NCBI RefSeq assembly: GCF_000165465.1
Contig: NC_017455.1
Coordinates: 1,860,001-1,924,000, forward strand
Source of the DNA: Halanaerobium praevalens DSM 2228
Lineage (GTDB): Bacteria > Bacillota > Halanaerobiia > Halanaerobiales > Halanaerobiaceae
DNA length: 64,000 bases
Direction of reading: 5' to 3'
A program made the position numbers and the translations under genes. This document shows positions 4,883 to 56,485 of the stretch, in pieces. The notes below the pieces were generated by a model. That model did not search any database, was not told the DNA's origin, and saw only the letters and a program-made list of their open reading frames with translations. The stretch's first letter is position 1; each line of letters opens with the position of its first letter.

Positions 4883-6334
4883 TTATTTCTCCTCAACCTT
4901 ATTAATTTCCCATTCAGTTCCATGGGGACTATCTATTACTTCAATCCCTATTTCTTCTAATTGGTCTCTAATTAAATCTGCTTCTTGCCAATTCTTGTTT
5001 TCTCTTGCCTTATTTCTTAATTTTATTAATAAATTTACTAAGGGAGAAACTAATTCACTTTCTGATTCACTAGCTGATTCCAACTTAAATTCAAGTCCTA
5101 AAATTTCTATTAATTCTAAAAATATTTTCTCTGTTTTTGTTAATAAAGCAAAATTCTTTTCATTAAGATCAAATTCTTTACGATTAATATAAGAATTTAT
5201 CTCTCCAGCTAAATCATGAATAACACCAATTGCCTCAGCTGTATTGAAATCATCTTTAAGAGCAGCTATAAATTCTTTTTTCTTAGAAATAATATTCTCA
5301 AAAAATTCTTGCTCTATTTTATTTTCTGCAGCTGAATTTATATCTAAACTCAAAACCTTTGCCAATTGCTTTCTAGTATTTTTTATTCTAGTTAAAGAAG
5401 TTGCTGCTTCTTCTAATTTCTCATAAGAAAAGTCAATTGGACTACGATAATGTCTGGTTAAAAGAAAATAGCGAACTACTTCTGCTGAAAATTCTTTTAA
5501 AACTTCACGGCTAGTAAAAAAGTTACCTTGTGACTTAGACATTTTTTCTCCACTCAAGTTAACAGTTCCATTATGCAGCCAATAATTAACAAATTTTTGA
5601 TCACTATATGCTTCAGATTGAGCTATTTCATTTTCATGATGAGGAAAAATTAAATCAACTCCACCACCATGGATATCAAATGTTGATCCCAATCTCTTCA
5701 TTGACATTGCTGAACACTCAATATGCCAACCAGGCCAACCTTCTCCCCAAGGACTATCCCAGCCAGTTTCACTTTCAACTTTTTTCCAAAGCCCAAAATC
5801 TAGTGGATTTCTTTTTTCCTTATTAACAGCAATTCTAGCTCCAGCTTGCATTTCGTCTAAATTACGTCCAGAAAGTTTTCCATAATCTGCAAAGCTCTCT
5901 ACACTAAAATAAACATTACCATTTACTTCATAAGCATATCCTTTTTCAATCAAAGTTGTTACCATTTCTATAATTTCAGCAACATTTTCACTTACTCTCA
6001 AATACTTATCTGCTGGTTTTACATTAAATTCTCTTAAATCTTCTAAAAAAGCATTTGCATATTTATTAGCTAATGCTGCCGGTTTTAAATCTTCTTCTGC
6101 TGCTCTTTGGACTATTTTTTCATTGATATCAGTAAAATTAGATATATAATCAACTTGATAACCTAAATATTCTAAAAAACGTCTAATAACATCATAATTA
6201 ATAACACTTCTAATATGTCCAATATGAGAATAGTTTTGAACTGTTAACCCACAGACATACATTTTTACCTTATCTTTTTCAACTGGCTTAAATTCCTCTT
6301 TTTCACCAGTCAGAGTATTATAAACTTTTATCAT
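4883..6334 (-). CDS. cysS: Cysteinyl-tRNA synthetase
   Basis: 483 residues, a class I synthetase. Motifs seen are the zinc-ligand CGL at residue 28, HIGHIRS (HIGH, near 36), GGGVDLIFPHHENE with further zinc ligands (near 220), and KMSKS in GEKMSKSQGN (near 265). It charges tRNA-Cys. The C-terminal part holds the DALR-like helical domain. The ribosome binding site is AAGGGG. A promoter overlaps the preceding terminator, and cysS probably heads a cysS-thyX-rlmB transcript. Confidence 0.97.
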   Translation of the reverse strand: MIKVYNTLTGEKEEFKPVEKDKVKMYVCGLTVQNYSHIGHIRSVINYDVIRRFLEYLGYQVDYISNFTDINEKIVQRAAEEDLKPAALANKYANAFLEDLREFNVKPADKYLRVSENVAEIIEMVTTLIEKGYAYEVNGNVYFSVESFADYGKLSGRNLDEMQAGARIAVNKEKRNPLDFGLWKKVESETGWDSPWGEGWPGWHIECSAMSMKRLGSTFDIHGGGVDLIFPHHENEIAQSEAYSDQKFVNYWLHNGTVNLSGEKMSKSQGNFFTSREVLKEFSAEVVRYFLLTRHYRSPIDFSYEKLEEAATSLTRIKNTRKQLAKVLSLDINSAAENKIEQEFFENIISKKKEFIAALKDDFNTAEAIGVIHDLAGEINSYINRKEFDLNEKNFALLTKTEKIFLELIEILGLEFKLESASESESELVSPLVNLLIKLRNKARENKNWQEADLIRDQLEEIGIEVIDSPHGTEWEINKVEEK

Positions 6335-6435: not shown

Positions 6436-7911
6436 TTAACTGTTTTGAGCTAAATTTAAAGCAGAATCTAATCTATTAGCAGTTTCTTCAGCTCCAAAAA
6501 TTGAAATTACACTAGTCATTTCAGGACCAGAAGTCTTGCCTGTTATAGCAAGTCTTGTTGGATGATAAATTGTTCTACCACCAACATCAAGTTCATTTTT
6601 TAATTCTTTGAAAATTTCTCCAACCGCTGCAGCAGTTAATTCTGAACGAGAAAACATTTTTTCTTTTAGAGTTTCAAAAACTAATTTAACATCTTCTCCT
6701 TTAAATTCTGCAGCAGCCTCAGCTGAATCATTAAATTCAATTTCTGTTAAGAAAAGCTCAGCTTCAGCTGGAATTTGAGCTAAATAATCAAGACCTGTCC
6801 TAGTTTCATCAATCACTTTAGCTAACCATTCTCGATTATTGGCTACATATTCTTCATCAACGAGCTCGGCTTCTAACAAAAATGGAATTGCTAAATCTAC
6901 TATTCGATCTAATTCAGCTGCTCTAATATATTTACCATTCATCCAATTTAGCTTTTCTCGATCAAATACAGCTCCACTTTTATTTACATCTTCAATTGCA
7001 AAACGTTCAATAATCTCACTTTGAGAAAGTATTTCTTCCTCATCACCACTTGACCAACCCAAAAGAGCCATAAAATTAAATAATGCTTCTGGTAAATATC
7101 CCTGTTCTCTAAATTCTCCGATATAAACAGAATCCTTACCTCTTTTTTTAAGCTTAGCTTTATTTTCATCTAAAATCAAAGGTAAATGAGCAAATTTAGG
7201 TAGTTCAAAATCTAAAGCTTCATAAATTAAGATTTGTTTTGGAGTATTAGAAAGATGATCTTCACCTCTAATAACATGTGAAATTTTCATTAGAGCATCA
7301 TCAATAACTACTGCAAAATTATAAGTAGGCATTCCATCTGATTTAAAAATTATAAAATCATCTAAAACAGAAGAATTGAAACTAACATCACCCCTAATTA
7401 AGTCTTGAACAATTATTTCTCTTTCTTTCTCAGGTAATTTAAAGCGTAATACTGGCTTTCTGCCCTCTTTTTCATAAGCCTTTTGCTCAGATTCAGTTAG
7501 ATGTCTACAAGAACCATCATAACGAGGCATCTGATCATTATCGATAGCTTTTTGTCTCATTTGATCAAGCTCATCTTTAGTACAATAACACTTATATGCA
7601 TAGCCTTTTTCTAATAATTTATCGGCATATTCTTGATAAAGATCAATTCTTTCAGTCTGTCGATAAGGACCATAATCTCCACCAATACCAACACCTTCAT
7701 CGGCATCAAGATTTAACCATTCCATTTCTTGAATAATAATTTCTTCAAACTCTTTAGTTGATCTAGCCTGATCTGTATCTTCAATTCTTAAAACGAGTTC
7801 CCCATCTTTTTGTTTTGTCACTAACCAATTAAAAAGCGCTGTTCTCATATTACCAATATGAATTTTCCCAGTCGGACTTGGGGGAAAACGCAATCTTATA
7901 TTATTACTCAT
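6436..7911 (-). CDS. gltX: Glutamyl-tRNA synthetase
   Basis: 491 residues. PPSPTGKIHIGNMRTALFNWL near the N-terminus holds the HIGH-type motif, and KLKKRGKDS (near 250) is the KMSKS equivalent. Cysteines in CYCTKDEL and a downstream Cys-His (GSCRH) resemble the zinc-binding insertion. Class I synthetase charging tRNA-Glu; in most Firmicutes it is non-discriminating and also loads tRNA-Gln for amidation by GatCAB, which I cannot confirm here. The ribosome binding site is AGGAGG with a rather long spacing (about 12 nt). It lies 40 bp after the CBS-HutP gene. Confidence 0.96.
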   Translation of the reverse strand: MSNNIRLRFPPSPTGKIHIGNMRTALFNWLVTKQKDGELVLRIEDTDQARSTKEFEEIIIQEMEWLNLDADEGVGIGGDYGPYRQTERIDLYQEYADKLLEKGYAYKCYCTKDELDQMRQKAIDNDQMPRYDGSCRHLTESEQKAYEKEGRKPVLRFKLPEKEREIIVQDLIRGDVSFNSSVLDDFIIFKSDGMPTYNFAVVIDDALMKISHVIRGEDHLSNTPKQILIYEALDFELPKFAHLPLILDENKAKLKKRGKDSVYIGEFREQGYLPEALFNFMALLGWSSGDEEEILSQSEIIERFAIEDVNKSGAVFDREKLNWMNGKYIRAAELDRIVDLAIPFLLEAELVDEEYVANNREWLAKVIDETRTGLDYLAQIPAEAELFLTEIEFNDSAEAAAEFKGEDVKLVFETLKEKMFSRSELTAAAVGEIFKELKNELDVGGRTIYHPTRLAITGKTSGPEMTSVISIFGAEETANRLDSALNLAQNS

Positions 7912-7951: not shown

Positions 7952-8743
7952 CTATATTACACTAGTACCAACTGTTAATTGTTCTGGGCCATCAACCAAA
8001 GCATGACCAAATTTACCAAAAATGGCTACAGAAACATGACCATCTCCTCTAACAATAGCTATTTTAAATCCTCCACCAAGGCCAGGATTAATAAGAGCTA
8101 ATTGACTATAAGCATCCTTAACTGCATTAGAAACTGCCATTTTTTCACGAGAATTTTCACTAATTACTCCTCTTGCAATAGCAGCGACTGTAGTACTTTC
8201 TCTTAATTTGATCGGTAATTTTTCTGCACTAGCCCCAGTTTGAGTAATAGCTCCACGATAACCATAACCCTCAATCTTTTTTAGCCAATACTCTTCATAA
8301 TCTCGACTTCTAGTCATAGAAAGATAAATAGCAGAACTCTCAGGAGTTATAGTCTTTTTTTCCATTTCTATTTCTTCTTCTTCATCTTTTAGATATCCAT
8401 AAACTATATCTTCAGAAGTAACAATACCTACTAATCTCTTTTTATCATCAAAAACAGGTAAACCACCAATATGGTTATCTGATAATTTTTTTGCTGCTTG
8501 TTGGACTGTACTATTTTCATTGATAGTTATTAAGTCATCAGACATAAAATCACTAACAGGTGCTTCTAAATCCCTCTCAGAAATTATATCACCATCTGTT
8601 AACATTCCAAAAACTTTACCATCTTCTTCAACTAATAATCTTCCAATTTTATTAATAGAAAGTATTTTTTCTGCTTCCATAATTGTTGCATTTAAAGAAA
8701 TTGTTATTGGATCATTTGTCATTATATTTTTTACTAACATCAT
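7952..8743 (-). CDS. CBS-domain pair fused to a HutP-like domain
   Basis: 263 residues in two parts. Residues 1-120 are a tandem CBS pair (MLVKNIMTNDPITISLNATI, then VSDFMSDDLITINENSTVQQAA), a module that usually binds adenine nucleotides. Residues 135-263 resemble HutP, the antiterminator RNA-binding protein of the Bacillus histidine-use operon: RGVISENSREKMAVSNAVKDAY, FKIAIVRG, then HVSVAIFGKFGHALVDGPEQLTVGTSVI, which parallels the HutP C-terminus as I remember it. The histidines that bind the metal ion in HutP appear replaced by Met, Asn and Gln. No hut genes are nearby. It overlaps ispF by 4 bp (ATGA) and precedes gltX, so it is probably cotranscribed with ispD-ispF. Nucleotide-controlled RNA or ligand binding is possible, but unproven. 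Confidence 0.72.
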   Translation of the reverse strand: MMLVKNIMTNDPITISLNATIMEAEKILSINKIGRLLVEEDGKVFGMLTDGDIISERDLEAPVSDFMSDDLITINENSTVQQAAKKLSDNHIGGLPVFDDKKRLVGIVTSEDIVYGYLKDEEEEIEMEKKTITPESSAIYLSMTRSRDYEEYWLKKIEGYGYRGAITQTGASAEKLPIKLRESTTVAAIARGVISENSREKMAVSNAVKDAYSQLALINPGLGGGFKIAIVRGDGHVSVAIFGKFGHALVDGPEQLTVGTSVI

Positions 8744-9264
8744 TTAATACTCCCTTCCCCTTTCAAGTTCTTAAAAAAGCGCCAAAGTTTTTGCTCTACT
8801 ACACTTACAACAGCATAAGCTGCCATACCTTCTTTGCGACCAACAAAACCCATTTTTTCATTTGTTGTTGCTTTAAAATTTATATCATTATTTTTTAAAA
8901 CTAAATGTTCTGCAATAGAGTTAACAATTTGACTGCGATAGGGTTTTAATTTTGGTTTTTCAGCTACAACTACTAAATCACAATTACTAATTATAAATCT
9001 TTTTGCAGCTACTTCTGCTTTAACTTCAGCTAAAAGTTCTAAACTACTAATATCTTTGTATTTAGGATCATCATCTGGAAAATGACTACCGATATCACAA
9101 CTTCCAATTGCTCCTAATAAAGCATCCATCAGAGCATGAAGCAATACATCAGCATCAGAATGACCTGCTAAACCAAAATTTGATTCAATTTCAACTCCAC
9201 CTAAAAAAAGCTTTCTATTTTCACTAAATCGATGACTGTCATAACCAAAACCAACTTTAAACAT
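8740..9264 (-). CDS. ispF: 2-C-methyl-D-erythritol 2,4-cyclodiphosphate synthase
   Basis: 174 residues from the ATG at 9264 (MFKVGFGYDSHRF). An upstream in-frame ATG at 9270 is only one base from the AAAGGAG site, so the second ATG (7-nt spacing) is the better start. Metal ligands are visible in GYDSH and AGHSDADVLLHALMDALLGA, and DIGSHFPDDD and ATTNEKMGFVGRKEG are family signatures. IspF closes CDP-ME 2-phosphate to ME-cPP in the MEP isoprenoid pathway. It overlaps ispD by 8 bp. The C-terminus has a short basic tail (KLWRFFKNLKGEGSIK) beyond the usual end. Confidence 0.96.
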   Translation of the reverse strand: MFKVGFGYDSHRFSENRKLFLGGVEIESNFGLAGHSDADVLLHALMDALLGAIGSCDIGSHFPDDDPKYKDISSLELLAEVKAEVAAKRFIISNCDLVVVAEKPKLKPYRSQIVNSIAEHLVLKNNDINFKATTNEKMGFVGRKEGMAAYAVVSVVEQKLWRFFKNLKGEGSIK

Positions 9265-9952
9265 CAGCATACTCCTTTAAAATAATTTCTGCCGGTTTTA
9301 AATCTTCTGGGGTTGTAATTTTAAAATTATTATAATCTCCCTCAACAATATACACTTTTTCTCCTAATTTTTCAACCAAAGTGGCATCATCAAGCGCTTT
9401 GTTTCCATTATAATTTTTGTGTGCTTTTTTGATTAATTCCAGCTCAAAAGCCTGTGGAGTTTGAATAGCTCTTAAATTGTTGCGATCTAAAGTCTGATTA
9501 ACCAAAGAATCTTCAACAACTTTTATTGTATCTTTAACTTTAACTCCACAACTAACTGCATTATGCTTTTTTACTGCTTGATAAACTTTTTCAATCAATT
9601 CTTTTTTTAGCATTGGACGAGCTCCATCATGAATTATAACATAATCAATTTCTTTACTAAAACTAGTTAAACCTCTTCCAACTGATTCCTGCCTGCTTTT
9701 TCCCCCAGCTACTAATTTGAATTCCATATTTTCAAAATCAGAAAACAGGGGTATTATATTTTTTTTAAAATAATTTATTTCAGTAGCTGCTAAAACTATA
9801 TTTAATTCAAAATCTCTTTCCCAATCTAAAAAACTCTTTATGGTATGATAGATAATTGGTTTTTTTAAAATATTCAAAAATTGTTTATTAACTTTCCTTT
9901 TCATCCTGCTACCTTGACCAGCAGCTGCAATTAAAACACCTATTTTAGACAT
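9257..9952 (-). CDS. ispD: 2-C-methyl-D-erythritol 4-phosphate cytidylyltransferase
   Basis: 231 residues from the ATG at 9952 (MSKIGVLIAAAGQGSRM), chosen over a longer frame because GAGGGTGAT lies just upstream and the nucleotidyltransferase signature AAAGQGSRMKRKVNKQF then starts at residue 8. VIIHDGARPML (near 95) and TPQAFELELIKKAH are further IspD motifs. It makes CDP-ME in the MEP pathway. It follows the PIN/TRAM gene by 4 bp and overlaps ispF. The pairing with a PIN/TRAM gene is conserved in Firmicutes. Confidence 0.95.
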   Translation of the reverse strand: MSKIGVLIAAAGQGSRMKRKVNKQFLNILKKPIIYHTIKSFLDWERDFELNIVLAATEINYFKKNIIPLFSDFENMEFKLVAGGKSRQESVGRGLTSFSKEIDYVIIHDGARPMLKKELIEKVYQAVKKHNAVSCGVKVKDTIKVVEDSLVNQTLDRNNLRAIQTPQAFELELIKKAHKNYNGNKALDDATLVEKLGEKVYIVEGDYNNFKITTPEDLKPAEIILKEYADV

Positions 9953-9956
9953 TAGA

Positions 9957-11045
9957 TCACCCTCTAATATTTTTAGGACGAGCAAAGATCATTCTCCCAG
10001 CAGCTGTCTGTAAAATACTAGTAACAAGTACTGAAATATCATCTCCTAAGTATTTAACCCCTTTTTCAATTACAATCATTGTTCCATCGTCTAAGTAGGC
10101 AACTCCCTGACCTTCTTCTTTACCTTCTTTTATTACTTTAACCTGCATTTCTTCTCCAGGTAGTACTACTGGTTTAACTGCATTAGCTAATTCATTAATA
10201 TTTAAAACAGTTACTCCCTGCAGCTCAGCCACTTTATTTAAATTATAATCATTTGTTAAAACCTTAGCTGAAGTAAGTTTTGCTAATTTAACTAATTTGC
10301 TATCTACTTCTGAAATTTCTTCAAAGTCACGATTAATTATTTTGACTTTTATTTTCGGATCATTTTGCATTTGTCTTAGAATATCGAGTCCTCTTCGGCC
10401 TCTATTTCTCTTTAAATCATCAGCAGAATCAGCAATATGCTGTAGTTCTTCTAAAACAAATTCTGGAATAATAAAATTACCTTCTATAAATCCAGTTTTA
10501 CAAATATCAAAAATACGTCCATCAATAATAACACTGGTATCTAAAATTTTATCACTACCTGTTTTATTTTCTGGACATTCCTTTTCTTTCTTTTTCTTAG
10601 CAAATAAAAAAGAACGTAAATCTGCTTCTTTATGACCTGCAAGAGCAAAACCAATATAAATAAAAGTAACATTAATGAAAATTTGTAAAGGTAAACCAAA
10701 ACGAGGTATTTTAGAGATAGAAAATATAAAATTTATAATAGCACCAGTTATAAGACCAATTATAAGACCAATTACAGCTATTAAAATTTTTTTCCAGCTT
10801 ATTTCTTTAAATTTAAGTTCAAAATCCATAATAAAATTCAGTAATTTTTCTAACAAATAAAATAATAAAAAATAACCCAACAAGGCACCTAAAAACACAG
10901 CATAAAATTGCTTGGTAAAAAAGAATCCCCCAACATTTCCCCAGCTGAAATTATATTCATTTGCAAAACCAAACATATCAACTAGGTGATAAGCAATAAC
11001 TCCGCCAAAAATCCCAAAAATAAACCGCATTATTTTCTTTAGCAC
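9957..11045 (-). CDS. PIN/TRAM domain membrane protein (YacL type)
   Basis: 362 residues. The first 150 contain four hydrophobic spans (starting at about 3, 48, 87 and 122). A PIN nuclease-like domain follows ([18 protein letters not shown] with the first conserved Asp, then [12 protein letters not shown] and [14 protein letters not shown] with further acidic residues). The C-terminus is a TRAM RNA-binding domain ([31 protein letters not shown]). This is the YacL family, found between disA/carD and ispD in Firmicutes; its biochemical role is not settled. I chose the GTG at 11045, which has GGAGG 7 nt upstream; an ATG at 11030 is an alternative. Confidence 0.88.
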
Positions 11046-11072: not shown

Positions 11073-11579
11073 TTAATTTTCGGAATCAACTTCTTCTTCA
11101 CTAAGTGTAAATAAATCATCCATTTTTTCAGATACACTTTCTTCATCCATATCTTTAGCTAAAACCAATTCACTAATTAAAATCTGACGAGCATTACTTA
11201 ACATCTTTTTTTCTCCTGTAGAAAGGCCCTTATCTCGATCTCTAATACTTAAATTTCTAACAACCTCAGCTACTTCGAATATATCACCAGTTTTTAGCTT
11301 TTCTTGATTAGCCCGAAAACGTCTATTCCAATTTTGAGACATTTTACTTTTTTCTCCATCTAATAATTCAAAAACTTCATCTGCTTTTTCTTCTGAAATA
11401 ACATCTCGAATTCCAATTTTATCGATTTTATCAACTGGAATCATAACTTTCATTTCTCCAATTGGCAGCTTCATAATATAATACTCTTTTTTTTCATCTA
11501 AAATAGTCTTAGTGTCAATACCGACAATAGTTCCTGCACCATGATTTGGATAAACGACTTTGTCTCCAATTTTATACAT
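11073..11579 (-). CDS. carD: CarD family transcriptional regulator
   Basis: 168 residues from the ATG at 11579 (MYKIGDKVVYPNHGAGTI), with AGAGGAG upstream; a longer frame begins inside the spacer. The N-terminal half is the CarD/CdnL RNA-polymerase-interacting Tudor-like domain (GDKVVYPNHGAGTIVGI, then YYIMKLP); the C-terminal half is helical (ELLDGEKSKMSQNWNRRFRA) with a conserved Trp. CarD proteins bind the RNAP beta subunit and stabilise open complexes at rRNA and other promoters. It lies between disA and the PIN/TRAM gene, as in clostridia. The acidic tail (DDLFTLSEEEVDSEN) is notable. Confidence 0.92.
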   Translation of the reverse strand: MYKIGDKVVYPNHGAGTIVGIDTKTILDEKKEYYIMKLPIGEMKVMIPVDKIDKIGIRDVISEEKADEVFELLDGEKSKMSQNWNRRFRANQEKLKTGDIFEVAEVVRNLSIRDRDKGLSTGEKKMLSNARQILISELVLAKDMDEESVSEKMDDLFTLSEEEVDSEN

Positions 11580-11687
11580 CTTATCCACTCCTCTTTTATG
11601 AAAGCAATAAAAATCCACCTTATAATTATATCATTTAGCAAAGCAGCAGTCAATTTAAGCATTTTTTAGTTTAAGTAATTAATAAAT

Positions 11688-12767
11688 TTAGATATGTCGA
11701 TCAAGCAAAACCTGATCTCTTAGTCTTCGCAGCCCATCTTTAATAGCTTGAGCTCTTACTTCCCCAATTCCATCAACATCATCTAAGTCATCAACTGAAG
11801 CCCTAATAATTGCCTGTAAATTTTCAAAGTGTTCAACTAAATTTTCTATAACTGGCATTGGCAAACGGGGTATTTTCCTCATTATTCGATAACCACGAGG
11901 AGATACTGTTTCTTCTAAAGCATTAACACTACCACTATAACCTAAGGCTTTACTAATAGTATTTAAAGTTAAAATTTCATCTGAAGACCAATCAGTTAAG
12001 TTTTCTAATACTTCTTCTGGATCAGAAGTATCTTCTTCTAACTCTTCTGATATATAATCTTCAATTAAAAGAATTCCTTCTTTTTTAACATTGTTTACTA
12101 GTTCTTCTAATTGCATTTTAATTAATCTACCTTCAGATCCTAACTCAGAAATATACTTTTCAATTTCTCTTTGAATTTTCAAAACCATTTCTGTTCTTTG
12201 AATAACTGTAACTACATCTGATAAAGTTACTAAATCTTCAAACTCTAAAGCCCCTAAATTTGTTAAAGCTTGATCAAAAACAGAACGATACTTTTCTAAA
12301 GTTTGAATAGCCTGATTAGCTTTAACTAAAACTACTCTAATATCTTCTAGAATATGTTTTGAGTCGCTTTTATAAATAGTAATAATTGAACGTCTTTGTG
12401 AAATTGCAATTACTAATTCTCCAGTTTGACGTGCTACTCTCTCTGCAGTCTTATGTCTAGTCCCTGTTTCAGAAGATTTAACCGTAGGATCAGGTATTAA
12501 TTGTGCATTAGCAAATAAAATGTTTTTTGCATCTTGATCTAAAACAATCGCCCCATCCATTTTAGCTAATTCATATAACCTGGCAGGTGAGATAGGACTA
12601 TTAATTTGAAAACCATCATTAACTAAATCTAATACTTCTTTTTTATCACTAACCACTATTAAACCACCAGTTTGTGCTCTTAAAATATTTTCTAAACCAT
12701 TTCTAAACACAGTTCCTGGAGCTAAAATTTTAAGAATTTCTAGTAATTTTCCATCAATTTCTTCCAT
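11688..12767 (-). CDS. disA: Diadenylate cyclase DisA (DNA integrity scanning protein)
   Basis: 359 residues from the ATG at 12767 (MEEIDGKLLEIL), preceded by AGAGGTGA; a longer frame adds six residues from within that site. The DAC domain shows KMDGAIVLD (near 90) and GTRHKTAERVARQTGELVIAISQRR (near 120). A helical linker follows, and a helix-hairpin-helix domain at the C-terminus (DDLDDVDGIGEVRAQAIKDGLRRL). DisA makes cyclic di-AMP from ATP and scans DNA for branched structures. It follows radA by 33 bp, the usual pairing; in Bacillus RadA inhibits DisA. Confidence 0.97.
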   Translation of the reverse strand: MEEIDGKLLEILKILAPGTVFRNGLENILRAQTGGLIVVSDKKEVLDLVNDGFQINSPISPARLYELAKMDGAIVLDQDAKNILFANAQLIPDPTVKSSETGTRHKTAERVARQTGELVIAISQRRSIITIYKSDSKHILEDIRVVLVKANQAIQTLEKYRSVFDQALTNLGALEFEDLVTLSDVVTVIQRTEMVLKIQREIEKYISELGSEGRLIKMQLEELVNNVKKEGILLIEDYISEELEEDTSDPEEVLENLTDWSSDEILTLNTISKALGYSGSVNALEETVSPRGYRIMRKIPRLPMPVIENLVEHFENLQAIIRASVDDLDDVDGIGEVRAQAIKDGLRRLRDQVLLDRHI

Positions 12768-12800
12768 TAGTTCACCTCTTTTCATAAGCTTAATTAACTA

Positions 12801-14168
12801 TTATAAAATAATTTTAACAAACTCAGCTATATCTTTAACTGCGTCAATCTTAAGTTCAGGATCAAAAGCTAAATTATTAGCATTTGCTGCTGGAATAATA
12901 ACTTTTTTAAATGATAATTTTTTTAATTCATTAATTCTTTTTTCAATCTGCCCAACAGCTCTAACTTCACCACCAAGACCAACTTCACCAATAACAGCTA
13001 AATCATTAGCCAGAGGTTTATCTTTATAGCTAGATACTACAGCAGCTATAATTGCCAGATCAAGACCTGGTTCTTCGACATCAATTCCACCTGTAATATT
13101 TAGGTTAACATCATGTTCTTTAAAGTTTGCTCCTAAACGTTTTTCTAAAACAGCTAAAAGTAAAGATAATCTTTTGTAATCAACACCTTTTGCTAGTCTT
13201 TGAGGAGAAGGAAAGGCTGCATCAGTTACCAAAGATTGAACTTCTACCAACAGTACTCTACTTCCTTCTAAAACTGGAGTAATAATTGAACCAGAAACAT
13301 CTGCAGAACGTTCATTAATAAAGAAACTAGAAGGATTAGCCACCTCTTTAATACCATTTTTCTTCATTTCAAAAACACCAATTTCATTTGTAGAACCAAA
13401 ACGATTCTTTTTAGCCCTCAACATCCTATACATATGGTAATTATCACCTTCAAACTGTAAAACTGTATCAACTAAATGCTCTAAAACTCTTGGTCCTGCT
13501 AACTCACCTTCTTTAGTTACATGTCCAATTAAAACAACTGGAATACCTGTTGTTTTAGCTAATTTAACTAATCTATTTGTAACCTCTTTTATTTGAGTTA
13601 AATTACCAGGAGCTGCATCAATTTCGGGAATATGAACAGTTTGAATAGAATCTACTACTATTAAAGCATAATCCTTATTTTGAGCTATATGATTTTCTAA
13701 AACCATATAATCTCGTTCATCTAAAATATTTAAATTTTCTTCCATACAATCAAGTCTTTCTGCTCTCATTTTAAGTTGGGAAGCAGATTCTTCACCAGAA
13801 AGATAAAGAGTTTTTCCATATTTTTGACTAAAAAGAGAAGCCACCTGAAGTATCAATGTTGATTTACCGATACCAGGGGCTCCACCAATTAAAATTAAAG
13901 AGCCAGAAACAACCCCACCACCAAGCACTCGGTCAAGTTCAGTTATATTTGTTTGATAACGCTGTCTCTTCACCGAAGAAACCTTTGTGATTGGCTGTGG
14001 TTCTTTCTCCTCTCTTCTTAAATCATATTTATTTTTATTAGTATTTGAATTATCTTCAATAATTTCTTCCAAACTATCCCAGGAACCACAATTAGGACAT
14101 TTTCCCATCCAATTAACTGATTTAGATCCGCATTCTTGACATAAGTAATATTTTTTCGCTTTTGCCAT
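12801..14168 (-). CDS. radA: DNA repair protein RadA (Sms)
   Basis: 455 residues: N-terminal zinc ribbon (CQECGSKSVNWMGKCPNCGSW), RecA-like core with Walker A (GGAPGIGKST, near 95), the RadA-specific KKNRFGSTNE motif (near 255), and a C-terminal Lon-protease-like fold (about 280-455; VEEPGLDLAIIAAVVSSY). RadA is a DnaB-like helicase that promotes branch migration in recombination. The ribosome binding site is AGGAG. It sits between clpC and disA, the standard Firmicute order. Confidence 0.97.
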   Translation of the reverse strand: MAKAKKYYLCQECGSKSVNWMGKCPNCGSWDSLEEIIEDNSNTNKNKYDLRREEKEPQPITKVSSVKRQRYQTNITELDRVLGGGVVSGSLILIGGAPGIGKSTLILQVASLFSQKYGKTLYLSGEESASQLKMRAERLDCMEENLNILDERDYMVLENHIAQNKDYALIVVDSIQTVHIPEIDAAPGNLTQIKEVTNRLVKLAKTTGIPVVLIGHVTKEGELAGPRVLEHLVDTVLQFEGDNYHMYRMLRAKKNRFGSTNEIGVFEMKKNGIKEVANPSSFFINERSADVSGSIITPVLEGSRVLLVEVQSLVTDAAFPSPQRLAKGVDYKRLSLLLAVLEKRLGANFKEHDVNLNITGGIDVEEPGLDLAIIAAVVSSYKDKPLANDLAVIGEVGLGGEVRAVGQIEKRINELKKLSFKKVIIPAANANNLAFDPELKIDAVKDIAEFVKIIL

Positions 14169-17393: not shown

Positions 17394-17469
17394 TGGCTCC
17401 CCGAGCAAGACTCGAACTTGCGACAAGATGATTAACAGTCATCTGCTCTACCAACTGAGCTATCGGGGA
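17394..17469 (-). tRNA. tRNA-Asn (GTT)
   Basis: 76-nt cloverleaf: acceptor TCCCCGA/TCGGGGA, D-arm AGCTCAGTTGGTAGAGC, anticodon loop CTGTTAA, T-arm GCAAGTTCGAGTCTTGC, and encoded CCA. It is the last gene of rRNA operon A, 12 bp after the 5S. Confidence 0.96.
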
Positions 17470-17481
17470 GTATTTAAAAAA

Positions 17482-17599
17482 GGACCGGCAGCGACCTACT
17501 CTCCCACATCGTTACCAATGCAGTACCATAGGCGCAGGAGGACTTAACTTTTGTGTTCGAGATGGGAACAAGTGTTGCCCCTCCGCTATTACCACCGGA
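17482..17599 (-). rRNA. 5S ribosomal RNA, operon A
   Basis: About 118 nt; starts TCCGGTGGTAATAGCGGAGG and ends GCTGCCGG, with the conserved CCCATCTCGAACACAAAAGT loop region. The end positions are estimated from pairing of the terminal stem. Within the gene the sequence is the same as the operon B copy. Confidence 0.95.
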
Positions 17600-17659
17600 A
17601 AGCTATTAAAATGTCATATTGTATAAACTATACAATCAAAAACACATATAGGAAATAAT

Positions 17660-22446
<4,787 letters not shown>

Positions 22447-22793
22447 AAAGAATTTGAATTTGGCTCATATTATTTAATATAAGCTTTAAACTATAATAAT
22501 TACTTTTAAGTTTTAACACTCAAAGTATATTAACGTTGGCTTGCTGTTTAATTTTCAAGGTTCACAAAATCTTCTTTTTATGACGCATTGTCGATTTTGC
22601 GTTAGCACATCGAGTGCGTCACCTGCATCTTCTTTTGTAGAACAAAAGGATGATGCCTTGCTAGGGGATTGACCCCTTCGCATAAAACTCTTTTATTAAA
22701 ACAAATTTTAAATTTACACTTACTTATTAAAAGCAGTATGTAGAAGTAATTTGTTTTTATAATTCGCTGCGTTTTTTATCAGCGACAATTAAT

Positions 22794-31258: not shown

Positions 31259-31325
31259 TCCACCTCCCTCCCTCTCTGGTTAGCTGATAGTTTAACCTGC
31301 ACCAAAGAAAGAGGAAACTTTGGTG
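31259..31325 (-). promoter_or_regulatory. folT expression platform
   Basis: Right after the aptamer, CACCAAAG/CTTTGGTG (31300-31325) forms a hairpin with the loop TTTCCTCTTT. The CCTC in the loop can pair with the purine-rich ribosome binding site (about 31262-31273). There is no T-run, so control is probably at translation initiation. This is inference from sequence only. Confidence 0.5.
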
Positions 31326-31409
31326 ACAGCGGACGCGACAGCAAGACCGCAGCTTTAAGCTTTCGTTTCAGAGCGACGTCCCATCTCTGAACACTCTACG
31401 CCTTCTGTC
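31325..31409 (-). promoter_or_regulatory. Tetrahydrofolate (THF) riboswitch aptamer
   Basis: The minus strand reads GACAG...CTGTC (P1 ends) enclosing GGCGTAGAGTG, GAGATGGGACGTCGCTCT, AACGAAAGC, GCTGCGGT and GCGTCCGC. These match, in order, the conserved blocks of the THF riboswitch as I remember them from Firmicute folT leaders (GGGATGTCG, ACGAAGCG, GCGGT, GCATCCGC). It lies upstream of folT. Confidence 0.85.
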
Positions 31410-31437
31410 TACTCTATCACTATATTATCTTATTTTT

Positions 31438-49787: not shown

Positions 49788-49862
49788 TGGAGCGGGAAAC
49801 GAGATTTGAACTCGCGACCCTCACGTTGGCAACGTGATGCTCTACCACTGAGCTATTCCCGC
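49788..49862 (-). tRNA. tRNA-Gly (GCC)
   Basis: 75 nt; acceptor GCGGGAA/TTCCCGC, anticodon loop TTGCCAA, encoded CCA. Last gene of the cluster. Confidence 0.96.
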
Positions 49863-49870
49863 ATATTTAA

Positions 49871-49955
49871 TGGTGGAGGGGAAAGGATTTGAACCTTTGT
49901 AGGCATCGCCGGCAGATTTACAGTCTGCTCCCTTTAACCACTCGGGCACCCCTCC
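49871..49955 (-). tRNA. tRNA-Tyr (GTA)
   Basis: 85 nt with long variable arm; acceptor GGAGGGG/CCCCTCC, anticodon loop CTGTAAA, encoded CCA. Confidence 0.96.
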
Positions 49956-50059
49956 AAATAAAATGTAGGAAGTAAGAGTTAGGAATTAGGAATATTTTCT
50001 ACTAAACTCCTATTCTTCTTCTCATCTGAATATTATTTTTTTCTCCATCCAAATTATTT

Positions 50060-50135
50060 TGGTGGAGATAAAGGGATTCGAACCCTTGGCCTCTACACTG
50101 CCAGTGTAGCGCTCTCCCAGCTGAGCTATATCCCC
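50060..50135 (-). tRNA. tRNA-Ala (GGC)
   Basis: 76 nt; acceptor GGGGATA, anticodon loop CTGGCAG, encoded CCA. A 104-bp AT-rich gap precedes tRNA-Tyr; it holds the repeat described in findings. Confidence 0.95.
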
Positions 50136-50150
50136 ATGGCTAAGAGTTAA

Positions 50151-50227
50151 TGGAGCCGATGACCGGAGTTGAACCGGTGACCTCTTCCTTACCATGGAAG
50201 CGCTGCTACCAACTGAGCTACATCGGC
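50151..50227 (-). tRNA. tRNA-Thr (GGT)
   Basis: 77 nt; acceptor GCCGATG/CATCGGC, anticodon loop ATGGTAA, encoded CCA. Confidence 0.95.
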
Positions 50228-50235
50228 AAAAAAAA

Positions 50236-50312
50236 TGGCGGAGGAGACGGGATTTGAACCCGCGATCTCCGGCTTGACAGGCCGGCGCGTTAAACCGCTA
50301 CGCTACACCTCC
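50236..50312 (-). tRNA. tRNA-Asp (GTC)
   Basis: 77 nt; acceptor GGAGGTG with one T-T mismatch against CTCCTCC, anticodon loop CTGTCAA, encoded CCA. Confidence 0.95.
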
Positions 50313-50383
50313 GTATTTGGATGTAGGAAGTAAGATGCTAATAAGAATCTCTTCTAATCAACAATATACTTCGATTATTTAAA

Positions 50384-50459
50384 TGGTGGGCGAAACAGGG
50401 CTCGAACCTGTGACCCCCTGCTTGTAAGGCAGGTGCTCTCCCAACTGAGCTATTCGCCC
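50384..50459 (-). tRNA. tRNA-Val (TAC)
   Basis: 76 nt; acceptor GGGCGAA/TTCGCCC, anticodon loop CTTACAA, encoded CCA. Confidence 0.96.
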
Positions 50460-50467
50460 GCAAAAAA

Positions 50468-50543
50468 TGGTACCCTCAAGGGGATTCGAACCCCTGCCGC
50501 CAGGATGAAAACCTGGTGTCCTAGACCCCTAGACGATGAGGGC
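50468..50543 (-). tRNA. tRNA-Glu (TTC)
   Basis: 76 nt; acceptor GCCCTCA/TGAGGGT, anticodon loop TTTTCAT, encoded CCA. Confidence 0.95.
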
Positions 50544-50553
50544 ATATATTAAA

Positions 50554-50646
50554 TGGCGGAGAGAGAGGGATTCGAACCCTCGCCAGGGTAAATACCCTGC
50601 TACAGGTTTAGCAAACCCGCCCCTTCAGCCACTTGGGTACCTCTCC
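50554..50646 (-). tRNA. tRNA-Ser (GCT)
   Basis: 93 nt with long variable arm (GCAGGGTATTTACCCTGG), anticodon loop TTGCTAA, encoded CCA. Confidence 0.96.
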
Positions 50647-50657
50647 ATGAATACTTT

Positions 50658-50734
50658 TGGTGGGTCTAAGAGGACTTGAACCTCTGACACTGTGGGTATG
50701 AACCACATGCTCTAGCCAACTGAGCTATAGACCC
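50658..50734 (-). tRNA. tRNA-Met (CAT), elongator
   Basis: 77 nt; acceptor GGGTCTA/TAGACCC, anticodon loop TTCATAC. That loop sequence fits elongator tRNA-Met; the lysidine-type tRNA-Ile usually has CTCATAA. Encoded CCA. Confidence 0.88.
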
Positions 50735-50748
50735 ATGTTATTAATATA

Positions 50749-50825
<77 letters not shown>

Positions 50826-50873
50826 ATCACTACCATCTAATTTTTGCCTGATGTATATATAAAATTTTAAAAA

Positions 50874-50950
50874 TGGTTGCGGGGACCGGATTCGAACCGA
50901 TGACCTCCAGGTTATGAGCCTGACGAGCTACCGGACTGCTCTACCCCGCG
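50874..50950 (-). tRNA. Initiator tRNA-fMet (CAT)
   Basis: 77 nt; begins CGCGGGG with the C1-A72 mismatch of initiators, D-arm GAGCAGTCCGGTAGCTC, anticodon loop CTCATAA, encoded CCA. Confidence 0.96.
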
Positions 50951-50971
50951 CTAAAAATATATAAATTTAAA

Positions 50972-51047
50972 TGGTGAGCCATGGAGGATTCGAACCTCCG
51001 ACAACCTGATTAAAAGTCAGGTGCTCTACCAACTGAGCTAATGGCCC
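50972..51047 (-). tRNA. tRNA-Lys (TTT)
   Basis: 76 nt; acceptor GGGCCAT/ATGGCTC, anticodon loop CTTTTAA, encoded CCA. Confidence 0.96.
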
Positions 51048-51068
51048 AAAAAAGTTGATGAAATTTAA

Positions 51069-51143
51069 TGGCTGGGGCGGTAGGATTCGAACCTACGCGT
51101 CCTGAGACCAAAACCCAGTGCCTTACCGCTTGGCTACACCCCA
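51069..51143 (-). tRNA. tRNA-Gln (TTG)
   Basis: 75 nt; acceptor TGGGGTG, anticodon stem CTGGG/CTCAG with loop TTTTGGT, encoded CCA. First tRNA after 5S. Confidence 0.95.
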
Positions 51144-51170
51144 ATATATTCATCAAGTTTTTTAAAAAAA

Positions 51171-51288
51171 GGACCGGCAGCGACCTACTCTCCCACATCG
51201 TTACCAATGCAGTACCATAGGCGCAGGAGGACTTAACTTTTGTGTTCGAGATGGGAACAAGTGTTGCCCCTCCGCTATTACCACCGGA
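51171..51288 (-). rRNA. 5S ribosomal RNA, operon B
   Basis: Same sequence as 17482-17599. The 23S-5S spacer upstream differs from operon A, but both keep an 8-bp hairpin ATTGTATA/TATACAAT. Confidence 0.95.
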
Positions 51289-51348
51289 AAGCTATAAAAT
51301 TGTATTGTATATTAGACTATACAATCAAAAACACATATAGGAAATAAT

Positions 51349-56138
<4,790 letters not shown>

Positions 56139-56485
56139 AAAGAATTTGAATTTGGCTCATATTATTTAATATAAGCTTTAAACTATAATAATTACTTTTA
56201 AGTTTTAACACTCAAAGTATATTAACGTTGGCTTGCTGTTTAATTTTCAAGGTTCACAAAATCTTCTTTTTATGACGCATTGTCGATTTTGCGTTAGCAC
56301 ATCGAGTGCGTCACCTGCATCTTCTTTTGTAGAACAAAAGGATGATGCCTTGCTAGGGGATTGACCCCTTCGCATAAAACTCTTTTATTAAAACAAATTT
56401 TAAATTTACACTTACTTATTAAAAGCAGTATGTAGAAGTAATTTGTTTTTATAATTCGCTGCGTTTTTTATCAGCGACAATTAAT

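Follow-up and report, generated by a model that had tools for sequence, protein, structure and literature searches.

The window analysed here, a stretch of 64,000 nt from Halanaerobium praevalens DSM 2228 (NC_017455.1, positions 1,860,001 to 1,924,000), carries a gene whose product joins a pair of CBS modules to a HutP-fold domain and which is coupled to the isoprenoid genes ispD and ispF. CBS-HutP is a real and widely conserved protein that is undescribed in the open literature, in which we found no paper joining HutP with a CBS domain, nor any on HutP-family, HutP-domain or HutP-like proteins. As far as the open literature shows, the combination of CBS and HutP with its fixed position in an operon of the MEP pathway is new, the two parts as such being already known. 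We tentatively favour the view, while holding it open to considerable doubt, that CBS-HutP is an adenine-nucleotide-sensing regulator with a HutP-fold, probably RNA-binding effector, serving the ispD-ispF operon.

A CBS-HutP fusion gene in the ispD-ispF operon

The gene and its domains were located as follows.

7952..8743 (-), CBS-HutP fusion gene, an open reading frame of 263 aa with an ATG start
8576..8734 (-), CBS module 1, PF00571 at 47.8 bits in the genome profile search
8399..8557 (-), CBS module 2, PF00571 at 62 bits in the genome profile search
7967..8335 (-), HutP-fold domain, PF09021 at 114.2 bits in the genome search, with a structure match to HutP

The Pfam search of the 263-aa protein gave the architecture CBS-CBS-HutP from the N to the C terminus. 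PF00571 was detected in two stretches above its cut-off (E 1.6e-29, 102.4 bits), and PF09021 covered residues 137-259 after them, scoring 112.6 bits (E 1.9e-32; cut-off 25). A chance open reading frame or a pseudogene is ruled out by the 48 aligned homologues with an open frame.

The fold was then assessed on AlphaFold models, both of them monomers. The model of full-length CBS-HutP, built from the 48 sequences, had a mean pLDDT of 87.5. Because its best 50 Foldseek matches were solely CBS proteins, the HutP part was modelled separately (pLDDT 91, pTM 0.87). The best Foldseek matches of this second model were all HutP, with E values down to 3.7e-7 and a TM score of 0.76, and its superposition on solved HutP structures (VIA-align) gave Z scores of 16.4-17.9 over 123-128 residues, the next, unrelated fold reaching 6.8. 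The initial annotation had proposed a HutP-like domain joined to two CBS modules; the profile match and the modelled fold together exclude both a C terminus invisible to the HutP profile and an unrelated fold.

The neighbouring genes, all on the same strand, are listed below.

12801..14168 (-), radA, with AAA_25, Lon_C and LapB Zn-ribbon domains, assigned also by synteny
11688..12785 (-), disA, diadenylate cyclase (PF02457, 4.1e-27; DisA-linker, 1.9e-56)
11619..11687 (-), disA-carD gap with a promoter-like TTGACT/TATAAT, noted by eye and similar in most relatives
11073..11618 (-), CarD-family transcription factor (PF21095, PF02559)
9957..11045 (-), PIN/TRAM membrane protein, YacL-like (PF01850, PF01938)
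9257..9985 (-), ispD (PF01128, 1.4e-61)
8740..9270 (-), ispF (PF02542, 1.7e-63)
6436..7911 (-), gltX (PF00749, 4.4e-110)
4883..6334 (-), cysS (PF01406, 1.2e-127)

The start of CBS-HutP overlaps ispF by 4 nt, and its stop lies 40 nt ahead of gltX; no terminator was found between CBS-HutP and gltX in the window. Throughout the host class (Halanaerobiia), with few exceptions, the order is radA-disA-carD-PIN/TRAM-ispD-ispF-CBS-HutP-gltX-(cysE)-cysS-thyX-rlmB. The setting between MEP genes and gltX, read initially from the letters, is thus confirmed by the domain matches of the neighbours and by conserved synteny. The remark that hut genes are missing there also stands: the neighbours are MEP genes, gltX and cysS, and the sole histidine ammonia-lyase homologue of the genome lies far off at C1:113642, adjoining no HutP copy among the three present.

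Almost every examined locus has CBS-HutP after ispD/ispF. Distant lineages retain the upstream side, and in them a MurA-like gene of the EPSP family often comes next, together with an RlpA-like lytic transglycosylase. Since gltX is so often replaced there, ispDF is the constant partner. Across loci CBS-HutP is separated by a median of 4 nt from ispF and of 61 nt from gltX. Furthermore, in six loci of the Halobacteroidales type one terminator stands ahead of gltX, after CBS-HutP, and a second one after carD, so that PIN/TRAM-ispD-ispF-CBS-HutP forms a unit of its own in all six. The gap medians and the paired terminators tie CBS-HutP to PIN/TRAM-ispD-ispF more than to gltX. Evidence from gene neighbourhood is indirect and by itself no proof of a regulatory target.

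The HutP-fold domain and its paralogues

The C-terminal 130 residues of the fusion share the fold of HutP, the Bacillus hut antiterminator (PF09021; 1VEA, 1WPV, 1WMQ, 4OK9), at about 20-23% identity. We take His73, His77 and His138 of HutP to be its metal ligands, Tyr69, Arg88 and Glu90 its histidine-pocket residues, and Glu55 and Thr56 its RNA contacts. An alignment of the HutP part of the fusion with HutP from B. subtilis and from Geobacillus, and with the genome's other two HutP proteins and their relatives, showed the metal positions to be occupied as follows.

8138..8140 (-), Met202, aligned with HutP His73; M, I, S or L across the family
8126..8128 (-), Asn206, aligned with HutP His77; N in 46 of 48
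7979..7984 (-), Glu254-Gln255, aligned with HutP His138; E in 48 of 48, Q in 45 of 48, and H in one sequence at the Gln position

The triad is absent from all 48 fusion homologues in the alignment. The predicted change of the metal histidines to Met, Asn and Gln is borne out, save that the third may be Glu with the register off by one: the placement of a one-residue insertion in the last loop decides whether the counterpart of His138 is Gln255 or Glu254. The counterparts of Glu55 and Thr56 are T/I and V/A, and the positions of Tyr69, Arg88 and Glu90 are also replaced. As the presumed metal, histidine-pocket and RNA-contact positions are all replaced, the histidine-Mg-NAG mechanism of HutP is unlikely to operate in the fusion, which further differs from HutP by its attached CBS pair and by the lack of hut genes nearby. 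An NCBIfam search with the HutP part retrieved no family at E values up to 1, the HutP equivalog NF002838 included.

The loss of the histidines, which the initial annotation noted in the fusion, is not a change peculiar to it. The H. praevalens genome has three HutP copies, namely the fusion and one member each of two further families, hereafter groups A and B. Group A, a common standalone clostridial HutP-family protein, has Gly, Gly and a gap at the places of His73, His77 and His138, and group B has Arg, Arg and His. With the triad missing in all three sampled paralogue families, its absence is not a mark of the fusion, and this comparison rules out a special event. Within the Pfam HutP family as sampled here, a missing triad appears to be usual. 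Among the compared sequences, only two HutP-like copies from the host class (L135:4167-4643 and L140:4427-4867) kept all three metal histidines. In L135 the genes ahead of the copy are those of a nucleobase-type permease and a molybdenum-hydroxylase-like protein, not hut genes.

Group A belongs to the same Pfam family as the fusion and is nearest to it in the tree, with modest support; it differs by having no CBS pair and by its neighbours, which are aro/trp genes and the gene for type I chorismate mutase. Its H. praevalens member (L001) lies at G000:C1:1605064-1605438. In most of 20 sampled Bacillota loci, group A (L001, L144-L160) stands directly upstream of these genes, and the chorismate mutase cluster was seen beside it in 15 loci, which suggests a regulatory role of the HutP fold in the synthesis of aromatic amino acids in these genomes. 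The group B member (L002/L130) lies at G000:C1:296339-296725. In Halanaerobiales, group B (L123-L142) is found beside lipid A/KDO genes (msbA-like, DUF374, lpxK, kdsB-like), and in other families it comes after hprK.

Within the fusion, the HutP domain is the more constrained part. The mean frequency of the majority residue over the 48 homologues was 0.85 in the HutP domain versus 0.56 in the CBS pair, and 57 columns were invariant in the former versus 8 in the latter. Such stronger constraint would be expected if the domain has a single fixed partner, and a linker or a relic would not show it. The near-invariant set comprises TRSR(E/D)YExYW, KLRE, N206, D210, NPGLGGGFK, FGHALxDG and E254, and the conserved core includes the invariant basic residues R145, R147, K179, R181, K201 and K227.

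The CBS pair and the proposed mode of action

In CBS domains that bind adenosyl ligands, the ribose-phosphate site is lined by the motif G-h-h-S/T-x-x-D/N (PMC11172384). Both modules of the fusion carry this motif.

8588..8608 (-), CBS 1 motif G46-M-L-T49-D-G-D52; G46 and D52 invariant in 48 homologues
8408..8428 (-), CBS 2 motif G106-I-V-T109-S-E-D112; G106 and D112 invariant, with T or S in every sequence at position 109

G46, D52, G106 and D112 make up four of the eight invariant CBS residues of the 48 homologues, and 9 of the 48 have G or V in place of T49 in the first motif. The closest CBS structures include ones bound to AMP, ADP, ATP or Ap4A and to SAM or MTA, the AMP/ADP binders reaching Z scores of up to 19. 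The CBS pairs of AcuB, MJ0100 and MJ0922 matched with Z scores of 16.6-19.0; the fusion has the adenosyl-ligand motif in both modules, and the C-terminal domains of these three proteins are other than its own. The ligand of the CBS pair is likely to be an adenosyl compound, the evidence not specifying which one. The possible nucleotide-responsive regulator envisaged at the outset is supported by the conserved motif, with G and D invariant in both modules.

A common design is offered by CcpN, where a CBS pair controls a nucleic-acid-binding domain and whose CBS part matches in fold (3fv6, Z 16.4). The nucleic-acid-binding domain of CcpN is a DNA-binding helix-turn-helix at the N terminus, unlike the HutP fold of the fusion. 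The effector part has a sole solved close relative, HutP, whose hexamer binds RNA (PMC7430163), and CBS-HutP is for this reason taken as probably an RNA-binding regulator. We propose that the adenosyl ligand of the N-terminal CBS pair would be AMP/ADP/ATP, SAM or a related nucleotide, and that its binding would switch the C-terminal HutP-fold assembly, which would no longer use histidine and Mg2+. The HutP domain would be the effector, most likely an RNA-binding oligomer and by analogy with HutP a hexamer; a different RNA target is possible. The protein would probably act on the transcription unit to which its gene belongs (PIN/TRAM-ispD-ispF, followed by gltX or murA) or on related genes, whose expression could in this way be tuned to the energy state. 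A bolder form of the idea, which we consider rather unlikely, is an RNA-binding regulator inherited vertically throughout the class, whose CBS sensor of a second messenger or energy nucleotide, possibly the c-di-AMP made by DisA, would directly control a HutP-fold hexamer and thereby set the expression of the isoprenoid and tRNA-charging genes.

Other readings of the protein were weighed against this one. The HutP-fold domain might not bind RNA at all and might instead regulate IspF/IspD, PIN/TRAM or GltX by contact, as a CBS-linked allosteric adaptor. The gene overlap and fixed order with ispDF would suit such a role, none of the presumed RNA- or histidine-contact residues of HutP is clearly kept, and CBS pairs commonly regulate attached or partner enzymes. 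However, every solved high-Z relative of the fold is an RNA-binding HutP, the invariant basic residues of the core would fit a nucleic-acid or nucleotide surface, and gltX and murA alternate as the downstream gene; we hold contact regulation to be unlikely. About equally unlikely is that the CBS pair is the receptor for c-di-AMP produced by DisA of the same operon, the protein being a c-di-AMP-controlled HutP-fold regulator. Every class locus of sufficient length does have disA within the cluster, and DarB and OpuCA, whose CBS pairs were solved with c-di-AMP, are among the fold matches. Yet the c-di-AMP receptor DarB/CbpB, which shares the CBS pair fold (Z 16.3-16.8), matches no better than the AMP/ADP binders, the fusion is 16% identical to it, and the receptor model NF041630 (CbpB/DarB) gives CBS-HutP 27 bits, below its cut-off of 125. 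The order radA-disA-ispDF-gltX is, moreover, old in Bacillota even without CBS-HutP, and one lineage (L115, L116, L118-L122) has no disA in the cluster yet keeps CBS-HutP. That absence is not decisive against c-di-AMP, since genomes without disA at the locus nearly all keep another diadenylate cyclase.

Two further readings carry far less weight. Among PDB entries the family profile matched best to a CBS protein from a ribosome structure of Methanosarcina (9zni), from which the CBS pair might be thought to target the ribosome, like those archaeal CBS proteins whose structures were solved on it, making the protein a translation or hibernation factor beside gltX/cysS. This is very improbable, because the match is limited to the common CBS part at ordinary CBS identity, and the archaeal ribosome-bound CBS proteins have no HutP domain. 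Hardly credible at all is a HutP proper, that is, a histidine/Mg2+-activated antiterminator with a substituted metal site: the fold and Pfam family are those of HutP, but the three metal histidines and the presumed pocket residues Tyr69, Arg88 and Glu90 are replaced, the equivalog model does not match the domain, hut genes are absent nearby and the sole HAL homologue is distant.

HutP has been studied as a single histidine-responsive antiterminator. Most sampled HutP-fold proteins have no metal site and stand in operons with chorismate mutase/aro, with lipid A/KDO genes or hprK, or with ispDF-gltX; the mostly missing site and the varied operons indicate that the HutP fold is probably a general regulator scaffold. 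CBS-HutP offers a tractable test case, with a guessable sensor class, a fixed operon and naturally lacking genomes for comparison. As the regulation of the MEP pathway in bacteria is poorly understood, a regulator fixed to ispDF would be useful. If CBS-HutP were a nucleotide-controlled HutP-fold hexamer, it would be the first nucleotide-gated HutP and would speak for repeated recruitment of the HutP fold for different metabolites.

Distribution, descent and RNA elements of the locus

PF09021 was detected in 53 of the 59 genomes of the host class, and the fusion type in about 49 of them, as counted from rows with the fusion-type profile range. The fusion is also present in several other deep Bacillota lineages; it is therefore no oddity. 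With the fusion HutP-domain profile at E 1e-30, 36 of 398 phylum genomes were retrieved, 14 in the class and 22 outside it. An open reading frame of at least 256 aa was found in 35 of the 36, so this HutP subfamily goes with the fusion. A genome scan yielded 50 loci in Halanaerobium, Halonatronum, Orenia, Natroniella, Halanaerobacter, Frackibacter and Bacillota MAGs; such loci are related by descent, which makes their counts not independent, and the locus sets partly cover the same genomes. In the tree the fusion formed one group (98/94), with group A nearest at modest support (93/83), the deep order being unsure because of long branches. No relative of CBS-HutP was found on viral contigs, and no match on plasmids. 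An origin from a mobile element or phage was rejected, the phage matches being CBS parts of guaB and one weak, short HutP-like match in an unannotated 4.5 kb record.

Natural absences show that CBS-HutP is dispensable for the operon. One family of the class has no trace of it, with ispDF and gltX side by side, and in genome G049 the ispF-gltX gap of 551 nt has no CBS-HutP and no recognisable remnant. In the same family, which has no HutP protein of any kind, IspD and IspF are fused in one open reading frame of about 390 aa (L164-L168). The gap of G049 (L163:1969-2519) has near-complementary arms at both sides, like a small inverted-repeat element as judged by eye.

The Rfam scan of 12 loci gave nothing in the CBS-HutP-gltX gap; it returned T-boxes and one lysine riboswitch. 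The T-box leaders, assigned by their position between gltX and cysE/cysS, occurred in 6 of the 12 (L035, L039, L041, L042, L058, L065), and none was reported in the window. Evenly spaced AG triplets in the intergenic DNA of the cluster numbered 7, 9 and 8 for spacers of 5-7, versus about 4.4 in shuffles that keep base content only, the loci being homologous and ribosome-binding sites included; the enrichment of NAG-like repeats is not convincing and was not taken as evidence. A link with OLE RNA through c-di-AMP, CBS and RNA was also set aside, the OLE paper making no mention of HutP and the window having no OLE match. Elsewhere the window holds a tetrahydrofolate riboswitch (31325-31418 (-), 69.4 bits) and two rRNA operons (17397-22447 and 49791-56139 (-)), the second followed by a long tRNA array.
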